Shown here: positions 2,944-21,592 of the stretch, piece by piece
How positions within the stretch are numbered: the stretch's first letter is position 1
Layout of the letters: each line of letters starts with the position of its first letter
Virus record (IMG/VR): IMGVR_UViG_3300046001_006770
Coordinates: 1 to 22,416 of that record
DNA: 22,416 nt
Source of the DNA: a virus
Direction: 5' to 3' (one strand)
The notes under the pieces: generated by a model
What the model was told of the DNA's origin: nothing
Seen by the model: only the letters and a program-made list of their open reading frames with translations
Databases searched by the model: none
Made by a program: the position numbers and the translations under genes

Positions 2944-2958
2944 TTGATATATTTATAA
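2944..2958 (+). promoter_or_regulatory. Candidate phage late-promoter element TTGATATATTTATAA
   Basis: This 15-base string lies in the 114-base gap before the tail tube gene and is repeated exactly at 19688-19702 before another gene. Its core TATTTATA also occurs before the 1645-aa gene (7585-7592), with near matches at 5521 and 3525. Here the core begins 47 bases before the ATG. The gap holds no other gene and no convincing terminator. Promoter function is inferred from recurrence and position only. Confidence 0.4.
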
Positions 2959-2996: not shown

Positions 2997-3485
2997 ATGG
3001 CTGATTTATTAATGAAAATGCCCATACCCTACGAACCAAAAAGACAGAATCGATTTATTATGAGATTTCCTTCTACGTTGGGTATTAATGAATGGTTTGT
3101 TGAAACTGCCGCAAGACCCTCTTTAACAGTTAATGCGACTGAAATACCTTTCCTAAATACTTCAACTTATGTTGCGGGAAGATTTAAATGGAATCCAATT
3201 AGTGTGAAATTCCGTGACCCTATCGGACCATCTGCGTCTCAGGCTCTTATGGAGTGGGTACGTTTATGTGCTGAATCGGTAACAGGTCGTATGGGTTATG
3301 CTGCGGGTTATAAAAAGAATGTTGACCTTGAAATGTTAGACCCAACAGGTGTTGTTGTGGAAAAATGGATTATCGAAGGAGCATTTTTAACTTCAGTTAA
3401 CTTTGACTCTTTGGGATACACAACTGACGGTTTAGCGACTATTACAACCTCACTTCAAATGGACCGTTGTATACTCGTGTATTAG
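2997..3485 (+). CDS. 19: Tail tube protein, gp19-like
   Basis: At 162 residues the protein is almost the same length as T4 gp19 (163). The opening IPYEPKRQNRFIMRFP, then WFVETAARPSL, FKWNPISVKFRDPIGPS (62-78), ALMEWVRLCAES, and the ending GLATITTSLQMDRCILVY fit the beta-sandwich tube subunit that stacks as hexameric rings inside the sheath. The ATG at 2997 has no Shine-Dalgarno but an A-rich leader. In T4 the sheath and tube genes are adjacent; here a HAD-like gene separates them. A hairpin and an endonuclease gene follow at once. The tail end of this gene is the likely target region of that endonuclease. Confidence 0.9.
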   Translation: MADLLMKMPIPYEPKRQNRFIMRFPSTLGINEWFVETAARPSLTVNATEIPFLNTSTYVAGRFKWNPISVKFRDPIGPSASQALMEWVRLCAESVTGRMGYAAGYKKNVDLEMLDPTGVVVEKWIIEGAFLTSVNFDSLGYTTDGLATITTSLQMDRCILVY

Positions 3486-3515
3486 AATACATCTGTCCAT
3501 TTACAATATTGTTAT

Positions 3516-3543
3516 ATTCCCATATATTTATTTATATGGGAAT
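3516..3543 (+). promoter_or_regulatory. Perfect hairpin covering the endonuclease start codon, possible terminator
   Basis: ATTCCCATAT (3516-3525) pairs perfectly with ATATGGGAAT (3534-3543) around an 8-base loop, and Ts continue to 3547. The endonuclease ATG (3536-3538) lies inside the 3' arm. Two roles are possible and compatible: a terminator for tail tube mRNA, and a structure that hides the start codon in read-through RNA. The loop and arms include TATTTATT, close to the candidate late-promoter core, so a transcript starting here would lack the 5' arm. The pairing is directly visible; the function is inferred. Confidence 0.65.
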
Positions 3544-4444
3544 TTTTATTTGTAAAATATGTCAAAAAGAATTTGAAAATTTAAAATCTTTAAGTTCTCA
3601 CTCATACCAAAAACATGAAGTTATCCCCGAGAAAATATATACAGATTATTTTTTGAATGGGGAAATACCTTCTTGTGGTTGTGGGTGCGGTGAAAAACCT
3701 TCTTTTATTTCTATAAATAAAGGATTTAATAAGTTTGTTTTATCACATCATAATAGAGTTCCGGGAAAAAATAATTTTCATAAAAATCCTGAAACACATC
3801 AGAAGGCTATTGAAACCCAAAAGAAAAATTGGAAATTAGGTAAGTATAAAGGTTGGTGGGAAGATAAAAGTCCTGAAACAATTAAAAAAATTGATGGTAT
3901 AAAAGAAAAATTAAAAAACGACAAAAATAGGGGTAAAAAAATTTCAGATAAATTAAAAGGTATTCCTAAAACAGAACAATCTAAGAAAAAATTATCAGAA
4001 TCACAAAAGAAAAGATATAGAGATAATCCACAATTAAAAGTTAATCAATCTATTTTTAGATTAAAATGGATGAGAGAAAATTCCAAAGTTAAAACATCTA
4101 AACTTGAAAATAGATTCATGACTATTCTTAATGAAATGGGGTTAAAACAAAATGTTGACTACATTCATAATTATTTGATTATAAATATCAAAACTTTTTT
4201 TGATTTTTATATACCTTCAAAAAAAATTATAATAGAAACTGATGGTGATTTTTATCATTGTAACCCAAATAGTGATTATAGTGAAGTTAAATATGATATA
4301 CAGAAAAAAAATATCACGAATGATAAAAGAAAAAATACTTGGTGTAAAAACCACAACATTCAATTAATTAGGTATTGGGAAAAAGATATTAATGAAAGAC
4401 CCGAGTGGGTTATAAACGATTTAAAAAACAAATTAAATTTATAA
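3536..4444 (+). CDS. Free-standing homing endonuclease with zinc finger and Vsr/EDxHD-like nuclease domain
   Basis: The start chosen is ATG 3536, giving 302 residues; the frame extends upstream only into the tube gene through a TTG. A C2H2 finger (C6, C9, H22, H27) is followed by a Cys cluster (C47, C49, C51). A Lys-rich middle has a NUMOD3-like DNA-binding segment around 133-165 (GKKISDKLKG and SQKKRYRDN). The C-terminal nuclease region shows FFDFYIP (D223), then ETDGDFYH (E234, D236, H241), then NDKRK (D263) and IQLIRYWEKDI, the layout of Vsr-like/EDxHD homing nucleases such as I-Bth0305I. Such enzymes cut phage genomes lacking the insertion and spread the gene by recombination. It sits between two tail genes, appears more A-rich than they are, and its start codon is in a hairpin. 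Homing role is confident; the subclass is less sure. Confidence 0.85.
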   Translation: MGIFICKICQKEFENLKSLSSHSYQKHEVIPEKIYTDYFLNGEIPSCGCGCGEKPSFISINKGFNKFVLSHHNRVPGKNNFHKNPETHQKAIETQKKNWKLGKYKGWWEDKSPETIKKIDGIKEKLKNDKNRGKKISDKLKGIPKTEQSKKKLSESQKKRYRDNPQLKVNQSIFRLKWMRENSKVKTSKLENRFMTILNEMGLKQNVDYIHNYLIINIKTFFDFYIPSKKIIIETDGDFYHCNPNSDYSEVKYDIQKKNITNDKRKNTWCKNHNIQLIRYWEKDINERPEWVINDLKNKLNL

Positions 4445-4445
4445 T

Positions 4446-4574
4446 ATGGAAAATGAAAACATAACAGGATATACATGTACTACTTGTGGTAAAGTATTTG
4501 AAACAAAAGAAGAATTTGACAATCGTCACAAAAAAAAGAAAAATAAAAAAGACCAAAGTAAAAATAAAGATTGA
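4446..4574 (+). CDS. Small zinc-finger-like protein (42 aa)
   Basis: This short frame begins one base after the endonuclease stop (TAATATG) and encodes 42 residues. It has YTCTTCGKVFETKEEFDNRH, with C11, C14, F18 and H28 in C2H2-finger spacing, but the second His is missing and a Lys-rich tail follows (residues 29-41). It resembles the finger at the N-terminus of the upstream endonuclease (CKICQKEF), which suggests shared origin or a DNA-binding accessory. It may be cotranslated with the endonuclease. It could also be a stand-alone zinc ribbon fragment. The frame and spacing are directly visible; expression is unproven. Confidence 0.55.
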   Translation: MENENITGYTCTTCGKVFETKEEFDNRHKKKKNKKDQSKNKD

Positions 4575-4611: not shown

Positions 4612-5370
4612 ATGGAACAAGATATAATTAAAGCCGGACAAGAAAATTTCACATTACCACACGACGTAGTCCAACTACCAACTGGAGGAGTATTTTATAA
4701 AAATAAGAAACGTCACGTTAAGGTAGGTTATTTAACCGCCAACGATGAAAACGTACTTATAGGTTCAATACAACAAGGAAGAGAAAATTTAGTATTGTCC
4801 TTATTAAGAAATAAATTATATGAACCTGATTTAAAACCTGAAGATTTATTAGATAAAGACGTTGAAGCAATATTAATTTTTTTAAGAAACACATCTTTTG
4901 GTCCTGAATATAATTTTAAATTAACTGACCCAAACACAACAAAACAATTTGATTCATCAATATTATTAGATGAATTAAATATTAAACAAGGAACAGTACC
5001 ACCTAACGAAGATGGAACATTTACAACCGTTCTTCCTAAAACAAACGCAAAAGTTAAGTTAAAACCACTTACCTTTGGGGATACTATTGAAATAGAAAAA
5101 ATGTCTGAAAATTATCCTGCGGGAAGAGTGGCTCCAAAAGTATCTTGGAGATTAAATAAACAAATTGTTGAACTTAATGATAGCTCAGACAGAGGTCAAA
5201 TCTCAATGTTTATTGAAACTCTACCAATCATGGACTCAAAATACATTAGAACTTTTTTAAACGAAAACGTACCATCACTTGACTTAAACAAAAAAGTATA
5301 TGCCCCTTCAGGAGAAGTAGTTGACGTTGATGTTAACTTTGGGGTTGACTTTTTTCGTCCTTTCTTCTGA
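4612..5370 (+). CDS. 26: Baseplate hub assembly protein, gp26-like (T4_baseplate family)
   Basis: The 252-residue protein opens with LPTGGVFYKNKKRHVKVGYL (22-41) and continues with TANDENVL, LLDKDVEAILIFLRNTSFGP and EYNFKL, then a second half with VKLKPLTFGDTIEIEKM. This is the plan of the gp26-type family: a short N-terminal platform strand, a helical region that counts assembly intermediates, and a repeated beta module. Many relatives carry a CPxC pair after the EY(K/N)F strand; here it is replaced by DPNTTK, so no metal site is visible. In T4, gp26 takes part in hub assembly. The gene overlaps the following gp51-like frame by 41 bases. It starts at an ATG after an A-rich leader without Shine-Dalgarno. 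Confidence 0.7.
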   Translation: MEQDIIKAGQENFTLPHDVVQLPTGGVFYKNKKRHVKVGYLTANDENVLIGSIQQGRENLVLSLLRNKLYEPDLKPEDLLDKDVEAILIFLRNTSFGPEYNFKLTDPNTTKQFDSSILLDELNIKQGTVPPNEDGTFTTVLPKTNAKVKLKPLTFGDTIEIEKMSENYPAGRVAPKVSWRLNKQIVELNDSSDRGQISMFIETLPIMDSKYIRTFLNENVPSLDLNKKVYAPSGEVVDVDVNFGVDFFRPFF

Positions 5371-7606: not shown

Positions 7607-10600
7607 ATGTCAAATAGTACCCTATCATTTGCATCAACATCTACGTTCAGAAATGCTCTGATGGCGAAAAATTTGGCCACCTATAAAGTTACAGGGGTTT
7701 ATAATCCTCCGTCAGGACCTAAAAATTATGAGACGGTACTTTCAGATTCACCTGTTAAAGATTCTCCTGACACATTAATCTCTCAAGACCCATTTGGTCA
7801 ACAATTATATCCATTAAATCAATACGGACCACAAGGTGGGTTTAATTTAAATATAAATTATAACGGTCCGCCATTACCTGTAAATTCAAATCAAGGTGAG
7901 TATAGTCCAAATGATACTAACATGGATTTACTCAATGAGTTTTTTATTGACGCGGCATATGTTGAAAATGTTTACGGACCTGCGGGTGGGTTTAATAACA
8001 TGGTTGTTGTAACAAATATACAAAACAACGACAAAATTTATCAACCTTATTGGGAGCCACCTAGCTTTGTTCCATCGACCTACACACCATATGATATTAT
8101 TCTAAACGATAATCCAAATGGTAATAACGGTTCATTGTCTCAAGACTCTTTCATAGCCAAATTAGGTGCGTCCACATTAAAAAAAGAATTTCAAGAAAGA
8201 ATTGGTAGATTGACGTATCAAAATACGGTTGGTTTAGTTAATTTAGAATCTTTACAAGACCCTTTTGAAGCCACCTTAATAGCAACGGGAAAAGAACCTT
8301 TGATTTATAAAAATTGGAGGATTACCGTTCCTGAAAATCCTGTTGGAGCCGCGGCAAATTTTTTATTAAGAGTTTCAGGAGCATACTCGCCCGTATCTCC
8401 AATACCCGGAGATTATTTCAATGAGAATAATATAAACGGAGCACCTTCACAACAAACTTCAATAGCGCTTAATGTTGTTAACCAACTTACAGGAGGATTT
8501 TTAGGTCCTATTCTAAATACAGTTAGAAATCCATCTCAGATATTTTTAGCGAATACAGGTAACGGTCAAAGGTCGGCACTTTTTAGTAATTTAAATTATA
8601 ATAGATATCAGCCATTTTTAGAGAAAAAAATAGGTGGTCTTATTATTGATACATTAGCAGGATTAATAAATCCAAATAATAATACAATAAATGGAAGTTA
8701 TTATGTTGGTAGTAAAAATTCTGAACCATCAACAATAACATCACCACCAAATCAAATACCGGTAAATCCTTTTGGACAACAAGTTGCGTCACCGGTTTAC
8801 GGTCCGTCTGAACTTGGTATATTATATGAAGGAAATCAGAACAAATTGAACTTTGGTTTGGCAGCTAAATCAACAATTGATGGTGGTGGGTTAAATGGTC
8901 AATTTGTTTGGACATCACCAAAATATAAAGGTAATGCGGGGTTCAAAGCGACTCCTGGTGGTGGAGCGGGTTCAAGAGATAATGAATTTAATTTAATAAG
9001 TAGTGATTATACAAAAAATGAATCGACTACGGTTACTTTCAAGAAATCATCTATTTTAGACCAAACACAAAGATTAATCGAGGCCGCGGATAATGTTTCA
9101 GGTATTTCTCGTTTAAAACACGTTGGTAACGCGATAAATCAAGTTAGTAAGGTATTCAATGATGGATATAAAGAAATGACAAAAGGTTCTCAAGTCGTTT
9201 CTTATAAAGATAATACAACTGGTTCTGAAAAAGGAATTGAATATTGTAGAGTTTTTGCTAAAGACACTCCTTATTACACATTCGCCGATTTACAAAAATC
9301 TGATGGTATTGTTAAAGAAGGTAGGAGATTTGCTAACTCTGTTTTAGATAGTACTTATAATCTTAATATTGTCCCAACATCAACAAATGTTAAGAAAAAT
9401 CAAAAGGGGGACTTCATAGCTCAAAAATATATGTTCTCAATAGAGAACTTAGCTTGGAGAACTTCGAATAAAGCGGGTTATACTTATGATGAGTTACCTA
9501 GTTGTGAAAAAGGCCCGAATGGTGGTAGAGTTATGTGGTTTCCACCTTATAATTTAAAGTTTAACGATACTTCAACCGCAAATTGGACATCAACTCCTTT
9601 TTTAGGTAGACCTGAACCTATATATACTTACAGAGATACTAACAGAACAGGAACTTTAACTTGGCAAATTGTTGTTGATAGCCCTTCAGTACTCAATATC
9701 ATTGTTGATGAACAACTTAAAGGTTTAAGTAAAGACAAAATTAATTCAGTAATGGATTCATTCTTCGCTGGCTGTACTAAGTTTGATATATATGAATTAG
9801 CCAAAAAATACAATAGAATACCTGTTTCAGAATTACAACAAATTCAAGAAGTATTAAATAATCCAAGATTAACGGCTCAAGAGGCTGCGGGAGCTATTGC
9901 GGCAAATCCGTCAGTCAATACAGTACCTTCATCAGGAATTAACAATCCTGTAAATCAATCCAAAACTGAAAAAAGTGCTCTTGCAAATAGTTTAGAGAGT
10001 GGGTATACTAATAAAAGTTTTTATTTCGATAATGATGAGCCTAAAAGTGTTACAAGTTATGAAACATTGTATAACAGTTATATAGGTCAAAAAAATACAT
10101 ATCAAATAAAATCTAACGGTATTTTCGGTTCTAATAATGTTTTATCAAATACTGATGGTTTTTTTAACAGTCAAATAGAAAAAGATTTTACAGACATATC
10201 TAAAGGAAATGATTCATTTATTAGTAAACTAAGTGAATTTTTAAAACAGGAAAACACTCAAGTTAACATAGAATTAGTAGGGACTAGTTCTGCTCTCGAT
10301 AGTGCAAATTATAATAAAAATTTATCGCAAACTAGAATAGATTCTGTTATTGAATATTTTAAAAATTATACAAATCCAAACACAAATACATCTTTAAAAA
10401 ATTTAGTAGATACTAGATTAAAATTTACAACTGTTTCTGAAGGGGAGGATGCGGTAATTTCAGTAAACGGTAGAACAATAAATTGTAATCAATTAATCAC
10501 TCAGGGTACAAGTAACAATAATAAAGATAAAAATATTTATTCTACAGATTCTATGGCGTGTAGAAGAGTAAGAATTGGTAAAGTTACCGCAACCGAACCA

Positions 10601-12544
10601 CCAACAAATAATAAAAGTAATGTTTTAGGACCTATTCAAACAAACCCTCAAAACGACAATAAAACAATAAACAATACGGATAACGTTACGGTTTCAAAAC
10701 CACAATCAACAACAAGTATATCACAAAAATTAAAAGAAGGTTTGAGTAAAAAAGTACTTAGAAATCTTTTAACGGAGTGTGAATATTTTGAAGTTATGGA
10801 AAAAACAACACCGTTTGTTTACGACTCAATAAAAGAAAAAATTAAATATTTTAATCCGGCATTTCATTCTATGACACCCGAAGGATTAAATGCTAGATTA
10901 ACATTTTTGAATCAGTGCCTCAGACCTGGACAAACGATTCCTGTTATAGGTACTGATGGAAAACCGAAATTTAATGACGCGTCAAATACATCTTTTGGAG
11001 CACCTCCCGTTTTAATTTTAAGAATCGGTGATTTTTACCACACTAAGATTATTCCGAAAAGTATTGCATTTACTTATGACCCGTTGATTTACGATATGAA
11101 CCCTGAAGGAATTGGATTACAACCTATGATTGCAAATGTTACAATGTCTTTTGATTTTATAGGTGGTCATGGTTTGGCAGGTCCTGTGGGGCAATTACAA
11201 AATGCGTTGTCGTTTAATTATTATGGTAATACAGAAATATATGATGAAAGAGCGGTGGCTACTGAGGATACAAGTGCTTTAGATAAAGAAGTTTTTGACG
11301 CTATTGTTGAGGCTCAAGGTATAAAATCACCAATTGCGACAAATCCTAAAACTAATTTAGGAGGTACGACAATTGGTAATATATTATCAACTAATGTAAT
11401 TGAAGGTGGAGAAACTGGAGATATGACCTATCAAGCAATAATGGATAAACAAGTTGACCAACTTAAAGAATATTTTAGTAATGTTGTTAATCAAGCGGAT
11501 TCGGTGGTTAAGACATATAATATGGGAGTATGGCAACTTATGACAAAAGATAGATTGTATACGACAGGTTTATTAAACGGCGAACCACCAAATAATAATA
11601 CCCCTATTTTTGGTTCATCTTCCGGTATTAGTAAAAAAATTGATGATTTATTTACATCATTTGTAAATGACATTAAAACCACCGATGTTATAAACAATAA
11701 TAATTCAATTATGTTTGGTTTGTATAAAACCACAAAATACAATAAAGAAATTCCTACAATTGAAAATAATTTTGTTAAATATGTGGAATCATTAAAGAGT
11801 GAATTTGAATCCACCGTTTTTGAAAAAAATCAAAATATTGTAAATCAAGAAGTTGATATGGTTCAAACATTTAGAAAATTAAATGTTGTTACTAAAAAAA
11901 CTGATGGTAAAATATTGGCGAACACTTCCGCATTTATATACAATGTAAGTGGAACTAGCGAAGTTACTCCACCAACCACACAAACAAATACTTTAGGTGA
12001 ATTAAGTAGTGATTACTCTTTAGCGTCAGATAAGTTAATGGATTATAATGATTTTTTAAAAAATAAAAAATTATTAGAAACAACATATGGACCAGAACCA
12101 GGAAAGTTCACTGCGTCCAGTGAAAAGTTTCAAGTACAATCTATAAATGAAAAAAGAATGTTTATGGTTATGGCTAGAATTTTTGAAAATAAAGATAAAT
12201 TAGAAAAATTTAAAAGTACTGTTATAAGTACAGAAATTTCAAATGTACCAAAATTAAGAAAAACTTTTGACGAATTATGTGATAAATTTAAAGATTTAGT
12301 TTTGAACGAATTAAAAGCTGAAGAGAAAAAAATGAAAGATATTAAAGAAGATAAAGAGTATTTAAGTTACATTAATACTAATGTATATTCTAAAGGTAAG
12401 ACTAGAAAGTTTAATTATACCACAGTTCCTAATCAAACCACAAATAGTCAACAGATAACTTTAATAAAGAATGTTTACTCTGACCAAAATGTTGATAATG
12501 ATAATAAGACATTCAATGGTAAAATTAAGTTCAATAATAATTAA
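7607..12544 (+). CDS. Giant baseplate/tail structural protein with embedded OmpA-like domain (1645 aa)
   Basis: No single known family covers this protein. Residues 60-410 contain repeated short motifs (PFGQQ at 62 and 388; YGPxGGFN at 73 and 123). Residues about 580-760 hold a structural segment with AQKYMFSIENLAW, GRVMWFPPYNLKFND and GRPEPIYTYRDTNRTGTLTW, typical of tail-tube-adjacent baseplate proteins. Residues 804-992 match an OmpA-like peptidoglycan-associating domain: SFYFDNDEP, then G892 to R910 aligning without gaps to the canonical GHTDxxGxxxYNxxLSxxR, then CRRVRIG. After it, PPVLILRIGDFYHTKIIP and YDMNPEGIGLQPMIANVTMS resemble a beta-barrel tube-initiator or cap domain (gp48/gp54 type; tentative). 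The C-terminus is Lys-rich and helical. The gene ends 2 bases before the gp53-like gene, so they are likely cotranslated. The tail or baseplate role is confident; the exact T4 equivalent is unresolved. Confidence 0.7.
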   Translation: MSNSTLSFASTSTFRNALMAKNLATYKVTGVYNPPSGPKNYETVLSDSPVKDSPDTLISQDPFGQQLYPLNQYGPQGGFNLNINYNGPPLPVNSNQGEYSPNDTNMDLLNEFFIDAAYVENVYGPAGGFNNMVVVTNIQNNDKIYQPYWEPPSFVPSTYTPYDIILNDNPNGNNGSLSQDSFIAKLGASTLKKEFQERIGRLTYQNTVGLVNLESLQDPFEATLIATGKEPLIYKNWRITVPENPVGAAANFLLRVSGAYSPVSPIPGDYFNENNINGAPSQQTSIALNVVNQLTGGFLGPILNTVRNPSQIFLANTGNGQRSALFSNLNYNRYQPFLEKKIGGLIIDTLAGLINPNNNTINGSYYVGSKNSEPSTITSPPNQIPVNPFGQQVASPVYGPSELGILYEGNQNKLNFGLAAKSTIDGGGLNGQFVWTSPKYKGNAGFKATPGGGAGSRDNEFNLISSDYTKNESTTVTFKKSSILDQTQRLIEAADNVSGISRLKHVGNAINQVSKVFNDGYKEMTKGSQVVSYKDNTTGSEKGIEYCRVFAKDTPYYTFADLQKSDGIVKEGRRFANSVLDSTYNLNIVPTSTNVKKNQKGDFIAQKYMFSIENLAWRTSNKAGYTYDELPSCEKGPNGGRVMWFPPYNLKFNDTSTANWTSTPFLGRPEPIYTYRDTNRTGTLTWQIVVDSPSVLNIIVDEQLKGLSKDKINSVMDSFFAGCTKFDIYELAKKYNRIPVSELQQIQEVLNNPRLTAQEAAGAIAANPSVNTVPSSGINNPVNQSKTEKSALANSLESGYTNKSFYFDNDEPKSVTSYETLYNSYIGQKNTYQIKSNGIFGSNNVLSNTDGFFNSQIEKDFTDISKGNDSFISKLSEFLKQENTQVNIELVGTSSALDSANYNKNLSQTRIDSVIEYFKNYTNPNTNTSLKNLVDTRLKFTTVSEGEDAVISVNGRTINCNQLITQGTSNNNKDKNIYSTDSMACRRVRIGKVTATEPPTNNKSNVLGPIQTNPQNDNKTINNTDNVTVSKPQSTTSISQKLKEGLSKKVLRNLLTECEYFEVMEKTTPFVYDSIKEKIKYFNPAFHSMTPEGLNARLTFLNQCLRPGQTIPVIGTDGKPKFNDASNTSFGAPPVLILRIGDFYHTKIIPKSIAFTYDPLIYDMNPEGIGLQPMIANVTMSFDFIGGHGLAGPVGQLQNALSFNYYGNTEIYDERAVATEDTSALDKEVFDAIVEAQGIKSPIATNPKTNLGGTTIGNILSTNVIEGGETGDMTYQAIMDKQVDQLKEYFSNVVNQADSVVKTYNMGVWQLMTKDRLYTTGLLNGEPPNNNTPIFGSSSGISKKIDDLFTSFVNDIKTTDVINNNNSIMFGLYKTTKYNKEIPTIENNFVKYVESLKSEFESTVFEKNQNIVNQEVDMVQTFRKLNVVTKKTDGKILANTSAFIYNVSGTSEVTPPTTQTNTLGELSSDYSLASDKLMDYNDFLKNKKLLETTYGPEPGKFTASSEKFQVQSINEKRMFMVMARIFENKDKLEKFKSTVISTEISNVPKLRKTFDELCDKFKDLVLNELKAEEKKMKDIKEDKEYLSYINTNVYSKGKTRKFNYTTVPNQTTNSQQITLIKNVYSDQNVDNDNKTFNGKIKFNNN

Positions 12545-21551: not shown

Positions 21552-21592
21552 ACATAGACACTGACTATATTTTGGTGTCTATGTTTTTTTTT
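21552..21592 (+). terminator. Rho-independent terminator after the ssDNA-binding gene
   Basis: ACATAGACAC (21552-21561) pairs perfectly with GTGTCTATGT (21575-21584) around a 13-base loop, followed by a run of nine T (21584-21592). It begins 14 bases after the stop codon. It should insulate the highly expressed binding protein from the downstream recombination genes, so those need read-through or a promoter not recognised here. Confidence 0.88.

Follow-up and report, generated by a model that had tools for sequence, protein, structure and literature searches.

A homing endonuclease gene behind the tail tube gene

The window that we analyzed is the whole of a 22,416-nucleotide stretch of viral DNA (IMG/VR record IMGVR_UViG_3300046001_006770, positions 1 to 22,416). 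This virus fragment carries tail genes of the T4-like type, with sheath, tube, baseplate hub, gp53-like, and gp32-like proteins. A predicted tail or baseplate protein of 1,645 amino acids (7607-12544) also has a match to an OmpA-like domain at residues 862-925 or so, which is below Pfam's cut-off. Behind the tail tube gene lie a free-standing endonuclease gene and a small zinc-finger ORF, and then the next structural gene (Table 1). The endonuclease has homing-endonuclease hits to PHROG families 559 and 3339, and its matches to zf-C2H2_6 and DUF559 are slightly under the Pfam cut-offs. By these matches, its nuclease domain is of a homing-endonuclease family, and it would be expected to cleave DNA site-specifically and to home. 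We found no match to the endonuclease in the records of isolated phages.

Table 1. Features around the start of the endonuclease gene, with their positions in the window
Feature	Position	Strand	Remarks
Late-type box TATATTTAT of the tail tube gene	2948..2956	+	
Tail tube gene (T4 gp19-like)	2997..3485	+	Transcript probably ended by the hairpin
TTTACA, possible -33/-35-like box	3500..3505	+	17 nt upstream of TATATTTA
5' arm of the hairpin, ATTCCCATATA	3516..3526	+	
Late-type box TATATTTAT across the 5' arm and loop	3523..3531	+	Same class as the boxes of the tube, capsid-like, and gp25 genes
Loop TTTATT	3527..3532	+	Latter half of the promoter-like box
3' arm of the hairpin, TATATGGGAAT	3533..3543	+	Holds the ATG and codons 2-3
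Predicted start of the endonuclease mRNA	3535..3536	+	Leaderless or 1-nt leader; inferred from 5-nt spacing and known box geometries
Endonuclease gene	3536..4444	+	302 amino acids; N-terminal C2H2 zinc finger, C-terminal DUF559/Vsr-like nuclease; free-standing
T-rich tract TTTTTATTT	3543..3551	+	Makes the site intrinsic-terminator-like; also encodes part of M-G-I-F-I-C
Small C2H2 zinc-finger ORF	4446..4574	+	42 amino acids; between the endonuclease and gp26
Baseplate hub gene (T4_baseplate / PHROG 150)	4612..5370	+	Next structural gene

A hairpin that contains the start codon

The start codon of the endonuclease (ATG at 3536-3538) lies within the 3' arm of a hairpin with a perfect 11-bp stem and a 6-nt loop. 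The sequence-only reading of this DNA had already placed the ATG in the 3' arm of a perfect stem; the stem is one base pair longer than the 10 bp that it gave. The RNA from 3510 to 3549 is predicted to fold with an energy of -13.7 kcal/mol (z = -3.3), and none of 200 shuffled sequences reached this stability. If we consider hairpins with a perfect stem of at least 11 bp, a loop of 3-10 nt, and at least three GC pairs, then this is the only one in the window, while 0.025 would be expected (mean of 40 dinucleotide shuffles). We rejected an outer helix around the hairpin (TTTACAA/TTTGTAA) as it is just 77% paired across alleles.

The hairpin is also a GC-containing stem that is followed by a T tract (TTTTATTT, which is interrupted, and which is in part accounted for by coding). 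It was picked up by a terminator scan, although that scan gave 12 sites vs. 8.6 expected. In nearly all alleles, it is the only strong hairpin between the stop codon of the tube gene and the endonuclease. Strong terminator-like hairpins are also found after the sheath gene (2037-2061) and after the gp32-like gene (21552-21584).

No Shine-Dalgarno site was found at the start of the endonuclease in the window, in agreement with the earlier reading, so the AUG itself would be the masked element. Folding predictions bear out the idea that the start codon is masked in read-through RNA. In that RNA, the average probability that the AUG is unpaired is just 0.001, and the AUG is buried in 33 of 33 alleles. 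In RNA that begins at the predicted start, the average probability over the 33 alleles is 0.75 (0.57 in the window). For the other genes of the window, the probability ranges from 0.01 to 0.71. The tube gene and the endonuclease are separated by 53 nt in the window and by 53-121 nt in the relatives that we compared, so translational coupling to the tube gene is unlikely. We also considered TTG at 3467 as an alternative start, but in relatives such as L019, there are in-frame stop codons ahead of the ATG.

Pairing is maintained in relatives that carry the endonuclease

We took 80 relatives of the endonuclease from IMG/VR, all of which are directly behind a tail tube gene. The junction is complete in 46 distinct alleles. 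In 38 of the 46, the ATG is within the 3' arm, and in 38 of the 46, the motif TATATTTA, which we discuss below, is within the hairpin (because the alleles are related, these and our other allele counts are not independent). The exceptions include L143 and L213, which are on the same contig and lack the element; L143 has neither the motif nor a masked start.

The sequence-only reading had proposed comparing the relatives for compensating changes, and these are present. In 33 distinct aligned alleles, 361 of the 363 cells of the 11-pair core are paired, with 6 double (compensatory) changes; the other two cells belong to two alleles whose loop is shortened. There are also many one-sided changes in the core stem, all of which preserve wobble (G-U) pairing (C-G to U-G, A-U to G-U, or U-A to U-G). 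These wobble changes point to the RNA, rather than to a DNA palindrome, as what is selected. The protein's sequence changes as well: residue 2 or 3 covaries with the opposite arm (G-I, G-N, E-I, or E-F in the window's endonuclease family), and in a second endonuclease family (PHROG 3339), D-F and E-F change in step with the opposite arm. A synonymous change from GAT to GAC is matched by a change from A to G on the opposite arm. The arm-matched changes, both in the residues and at the synonymous site, indicate selection on pairing beyond the protein sequence. As judged from these comparisons, the hairpin is selected and not due to chance, because the relatives keep the fold where the letters change.

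A promoter-like box within the hairpin

The promoter-like box is TATTTATT (3525-3532), and its conserved unit is TATATTTAT. Exact TATATTTAT occurs three times on the + strand of the window (at 2948, 3523, and 19692), each time shortly upstream of the start of a gene. On the sense strand, the density of TATATTTA is 2.8 per kb over the 100 nt that precede genes, compared with 0.012 per kb in coding sequence, while for the reverse complement, the two densities differ only twofold. Because the enrichment is on the sense strand only, we rejected the T4 box TATAAATA on the minus strand (3529-3536) as a divergent promoter. The strand-specific enrichment upstream of genes, along with the boxes at the tube, capsid-like, and gp25 genes, supports the earlier suggestion that the hairpin contains a promoter-type element that is common to structural genes. 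This element would be active as a promoter.

In a 203-kb relative (G003), promoters fall into two classes, and we label these as early or late by gene content. TTTG-N-TATCTTTG is found upstream of small early-type genes, and nine of these have the form TTTGG-N-TATCTTTG-tatt-ATG, with the box exactly 4 nt from the ATG. TATATTTA precedes gp25 (5 nt from its ATG), the tail tube gene, and a capsid-like gene. The TTTG-N-TATCTTTG class is the Bacteroidetes sigmaA promoter, which has its box at -12 to -5 (PMC6847099; PMC9723704). Because of this sigmaA-type promoter, and because of the kinship to Flavobacterium phage immuto (tube 37.5% identical), the hosts are probably Bacteroidetes. Arrays of small genes, with a sigmaA-type promoter for each gene, are found at 155-190 kb of G003 (L502-L507) and at 60-76 kb of immuto (L482).

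The early promoters of immuto, and the TTKACA upstream of the box, gave us the idea that the box in the hairpin might be an early or sigmaA promoter. TTKACA (at -23) is present in 51 of 82 endonuclease promoters, with enrichment in tube-linked endonucleases, vs. 10 of 138 structural promoters. We rejected this idea because the core sequence disagrees: in G003, the early-type genes use TATCTTTG with TTTG upstream, and the structural genes use TATATTTA.

For ordinary structural genes, TATATTTA is mostly 29-46 nt upstream of the ATG. In 30 cases, nearly all of which are endonucleases, it is exactly 5 nt upstream, and the spacing in the window is the same. The late box of T4 spans 8 bp from -13 on and hence occupies -13 to -6 (PMC2988020). 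Given the known geometries of the boxes, a spacing of 4 or 5 nt predicts that transcription starts at or next to the A of the ATG, which would give a leaderless mRNA. (About 5.5% of the mapped mRNAs of F. psychrophilum are leaderless; PMC9723704.) The early mRNAs of the nine G003 genes look leaderless too. A phage sigma-70 family factor (with regions 1.2, 2, and 4) is encoded at L391:10885-11778, directly upstream of a gene with a hairpin and box, and it has homologs in G005, G006, and G007.

Alleles without the endonuclease

The insertion site is fixed: occupied alleles have the endonuclease behind the tail tube gene, and there are empty alleles as well. In relatives without the endonuclease, the tube gene is followed by a plain terminator hairpin whose loop varies. 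This, together with the terminator-like layout in the window, fits the earlier proposal that the hairpin may double as the terminator of the tail tube gene. Among alleles with the endonuclease, 38 of 46 have TATATTTA inside the tube hairpin; among those that lack it, 5 of 65 do, and all 5 carry a second endonuclease family at the same place. If we exclude loci with other inserts, the comparison is 38 of 46 vs. 0 of 56 (P about 1e-20, Fisher exact test, uncorrected for relatedness). In L003, which lacks the endonuclease and whose tube is 94% identical, the small zinc-finger ORF comes immediately after a plain terminator, so the cassette, including its hairpin, occupies the place of the plain terminator. 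(This 42-amino-acid ORF is directly behind the tube terminators of L003, L036, and L041.)

The stop codon of the tube gene (3483-3485 in the window) also differs: all 50 occupied alleles end the gene with TAG or TGA, whereas 51 of the 56 empty ones use TAA. The contrast suggests co-conversion or a mark of target resistance, with an endonuclease site that includes the stop codon. L045, which lacks the endonuclease, has a nearly identical hairpin about 46-76 nt behind the tube stop codon, with the box decayed to TATATTAAT; perhaps this is a scar of endonuclease loss. In 16 cases without the endonuclease, the 5' arm of a terminator shares sequence with a TATATTTA box; most of these are just upstream of gp26, whose ATG is not masked. 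(In L014, L034, L056, and L060-L082, the overlap has the form TATATTTAACCGTAAAG...CTTTACGGTTA-TTTTTTT just before the ATG.) Thus, the overlap of promoter and terminator is not specific to endonucleases; the masked start is.

Similar hairpins in other endonuclease families

The second family behind the tail tube gene (phrog_3339) is larger (about 527 amino acids) and has a similar layout. Among its 56 distinct alleles, the ATG is in the 3' arm in 46 and the box is inside the hairpin in 44, with a spacing of 5-22 nt. In L089 and L104, a single tail tube gene is followed by a tandem pair of different endonuclease genes, both of which have a hairpin and a box to themselves. L128 also has a long insert upstream of gp26. 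In zinc-finger families that are more distant, the stems are unrelated and end shortly before the ATG (3-11 nt before it in several). In one such group (L290-L306), the loop ATATTTATAATAAA is nearly constant, the stems are wholly different yet complementary, and the 3' arm contains a Shine-Dalgarno-like GGAGG, GAGGG, or AAGGA.

We also scanned IMG/VR for CCATATATTTAT-N2..22-TATATGG. Any match to this pattern has ATGG in its 3' arm by design, and only long endonuclease ORFs that start there are therefore informative. Matches were found upstream of GIY-YIG/NUMOD (L451, L365, L372, L437, L425), NUMOD3 (L429), and DUF723 (L373) endonucleases, as well as upstream of HNH-like ORFs that we assigned only by eye (L397, L463, L383). 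The elements from the scan often have longer stems and are found at sites other than the tail tube. The same scan matched some structural genes too (gp25 and large tail proteins). Among the 134 genes of G002, only two have the ATG in an arm of at least 10 bp, and both are endonucleases with a hairpin of this kind. The 172 genes of G003 include seven with the ATG in an arm of at least 10 bp, none of them with a TATATTTA box. We see an even chance that unrelated endonuclease families in these T4-like phages, which probably infect Bacteroidetes, have repeatedly assembled a general, compact start module that combines the invaded gene's terminator with the invader's promoter and start lock, and that yields a leaderless endonuclease mRNA in hosts whose lineage translates without Shine-Dalgarno sites.

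How the hairpin might work

We propose that the 28-bp hairpin is probably three elements in one, a terminator, a promoter, and a start lock, for an endonuclease that was inserted behind the tail tube gene. RNA from the tube promoter would fold and, with the T-rich tract, would form an intrinsic terminator that replaces the tube gene's original one. In RNA that reads through, the AUG and codons 2-3 would be locked in the 3' arm, and ribosomes would be unable to initiate. The endonuclease's own late-type box, which spans the 5' arm and the loop and is 5 nt from the AUG, would produce an RNA that begins at the AUG or one base before it. Without the 5' arm, this RNA would not fold and would be translated as a leaderless message (AUGGGAAUU). 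Overall, the endonuclease would be expressed from its own promoter only, insulated from the strong transcription of the tube gene, and the tube message would keep a proper 3' end. For this model, we infer promoter activity, the start of the transcript, termination, and translational repression from sequence features.

Another explanation is that the promoter and the terminator share sequence to save space. The ATG would be in the stem because of compaction, read-through would be rare, and the masking would have no regulatory role. Terminators behind the tube gene are general in this clade, and the 16 endonuclease-less terminators described above overlap TATATTTA at the 5' arm, mostly with the unmasked ATG of gp26 next. 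However, compaction would not lead us to expect that the start is buried in every one of 33 folded alleles, with the second residue changing to keep the pairing. Unrelated endonuclease families, some of them at other sites, mask their starts too, and in the distant L290-L306, it is a Shine-Dalgarno-like sequence that the 3' arm hides. We consider space-saving by itself to be unlikely.

The sequence-only reading saw here the design of I-TevI of T4. Taken exactly as in T4, this would be a switch from early to late, in which early read-through RNA is silent and a late promoter frees the start. The layout does resemble that of I-TevI, segB, and mobE, and the box is of the class used by structural genes. 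But the tube gene, which is next upstream, has this late-type box too, and read-through would therefore be expected late as well; we did not notice an early-type promoter before the tube gene. A timing switch therefore seems unlikely. If most read-through RNA is late, then the more likely role of the lock is to shield the endonuclease from read-through of the tube gene, or to limit its dose, rather than to time its expression.

Alternatively, the palindrome could be a DNA operator that is bound by the endonuclease. I-TevI represses its own expression at an operator that overlaps its late promoter (PMC2988022), and the element is palindromic as DNA. However, the G-U wobble changes preserve the RNA pairing but break the DNA palindrome, and the stem sequences vary between families and even within L290-L306, so an operator is very improbable. 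Finally, we discount a chance hairpin or a codon constraint (the F-I-C of the zinc finger's N terminus does favor T-rich codons) almost entirely, given the 0.025 hairpins expected per window, the compensatory changes, including a synonymous one, and the conserved loop.

If the proposed three-in-one hairpin is correct, it suggests that a T4-style endonuclease lock may operate where Shine-Dalgarno sites are absent, through a buried AUG and a leaderless RNA. It also suggests that by bringing along a replacement terminator, selfish genes could enter harmlessly between late structural genes. The first residues of the protein would be a case of protein sequence that is shaped by RNA pairing. TATATTTAT inside a hairpin, with an ATG in the 3' arm, is a signature that can be used in searches.

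Comparison with known systems

For I-TevI, I-TevII, I-TevIII, and segB of T4, the initiation region is hidden when the read-through RNA folds (PMC2988022, PMC3014915). As in those systems, the gene encodes an endonuclease and has its own promoter, which is predicted here to be placed so that its RNA omits the 5' arm. In the T4 systems, a Shine-Dalgarno sequence is hidden and the upstream RNA is early or middle, whereas here the AUG is in the stem without a Shine-Dalgarno sequence, and the upstream gene is late-type by promoter class. Also unlike those systems, the gene's own RNA is predicted to be leaderless, and the hairpin is terminator-like as well.

A hairpin at mobE of Aeromonas phage Aeh1 was reportedly described by Gibb and Edgell in 2007 and 2009. 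As it is recounted in a later paper, mobE also combines a free-standing endonuclease, a sequestered initiation region, and a promoter at the hairpin (PMC2988022). In the same account, mobE is an HNH gene within nrdA whose ribosome binding site is hidden, while here it is an isolated AUG (PMC2988022).

The mobE and segF genes of T4 resemble our case in having an intrinsic terminator inside the first codons of an endonuclease gene, but they are described as promoter-less cassettes, and here the promoter box and the terminator coincide (PMC2988022). In T4 genes e, soc, and 49, the Shine-Dalgarno sequence and/or the AUG is sequestered in the long RNA, and for gene e, a late promoter at the 5' strand of the hairpin was shown (PMC3014915). 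These genes are not homing endonucleases, and a terminator role is not described for them in that paper (PMC3014915). Overall, the logic of the lock is known from T4 (I-TevI and segB) and from mobE of Aeh1, and relative to the openly licensed literature, the version proposed here, which would be free of Shine-Dalgarno sites, probably leaderless, and fused to a terminator, is new.
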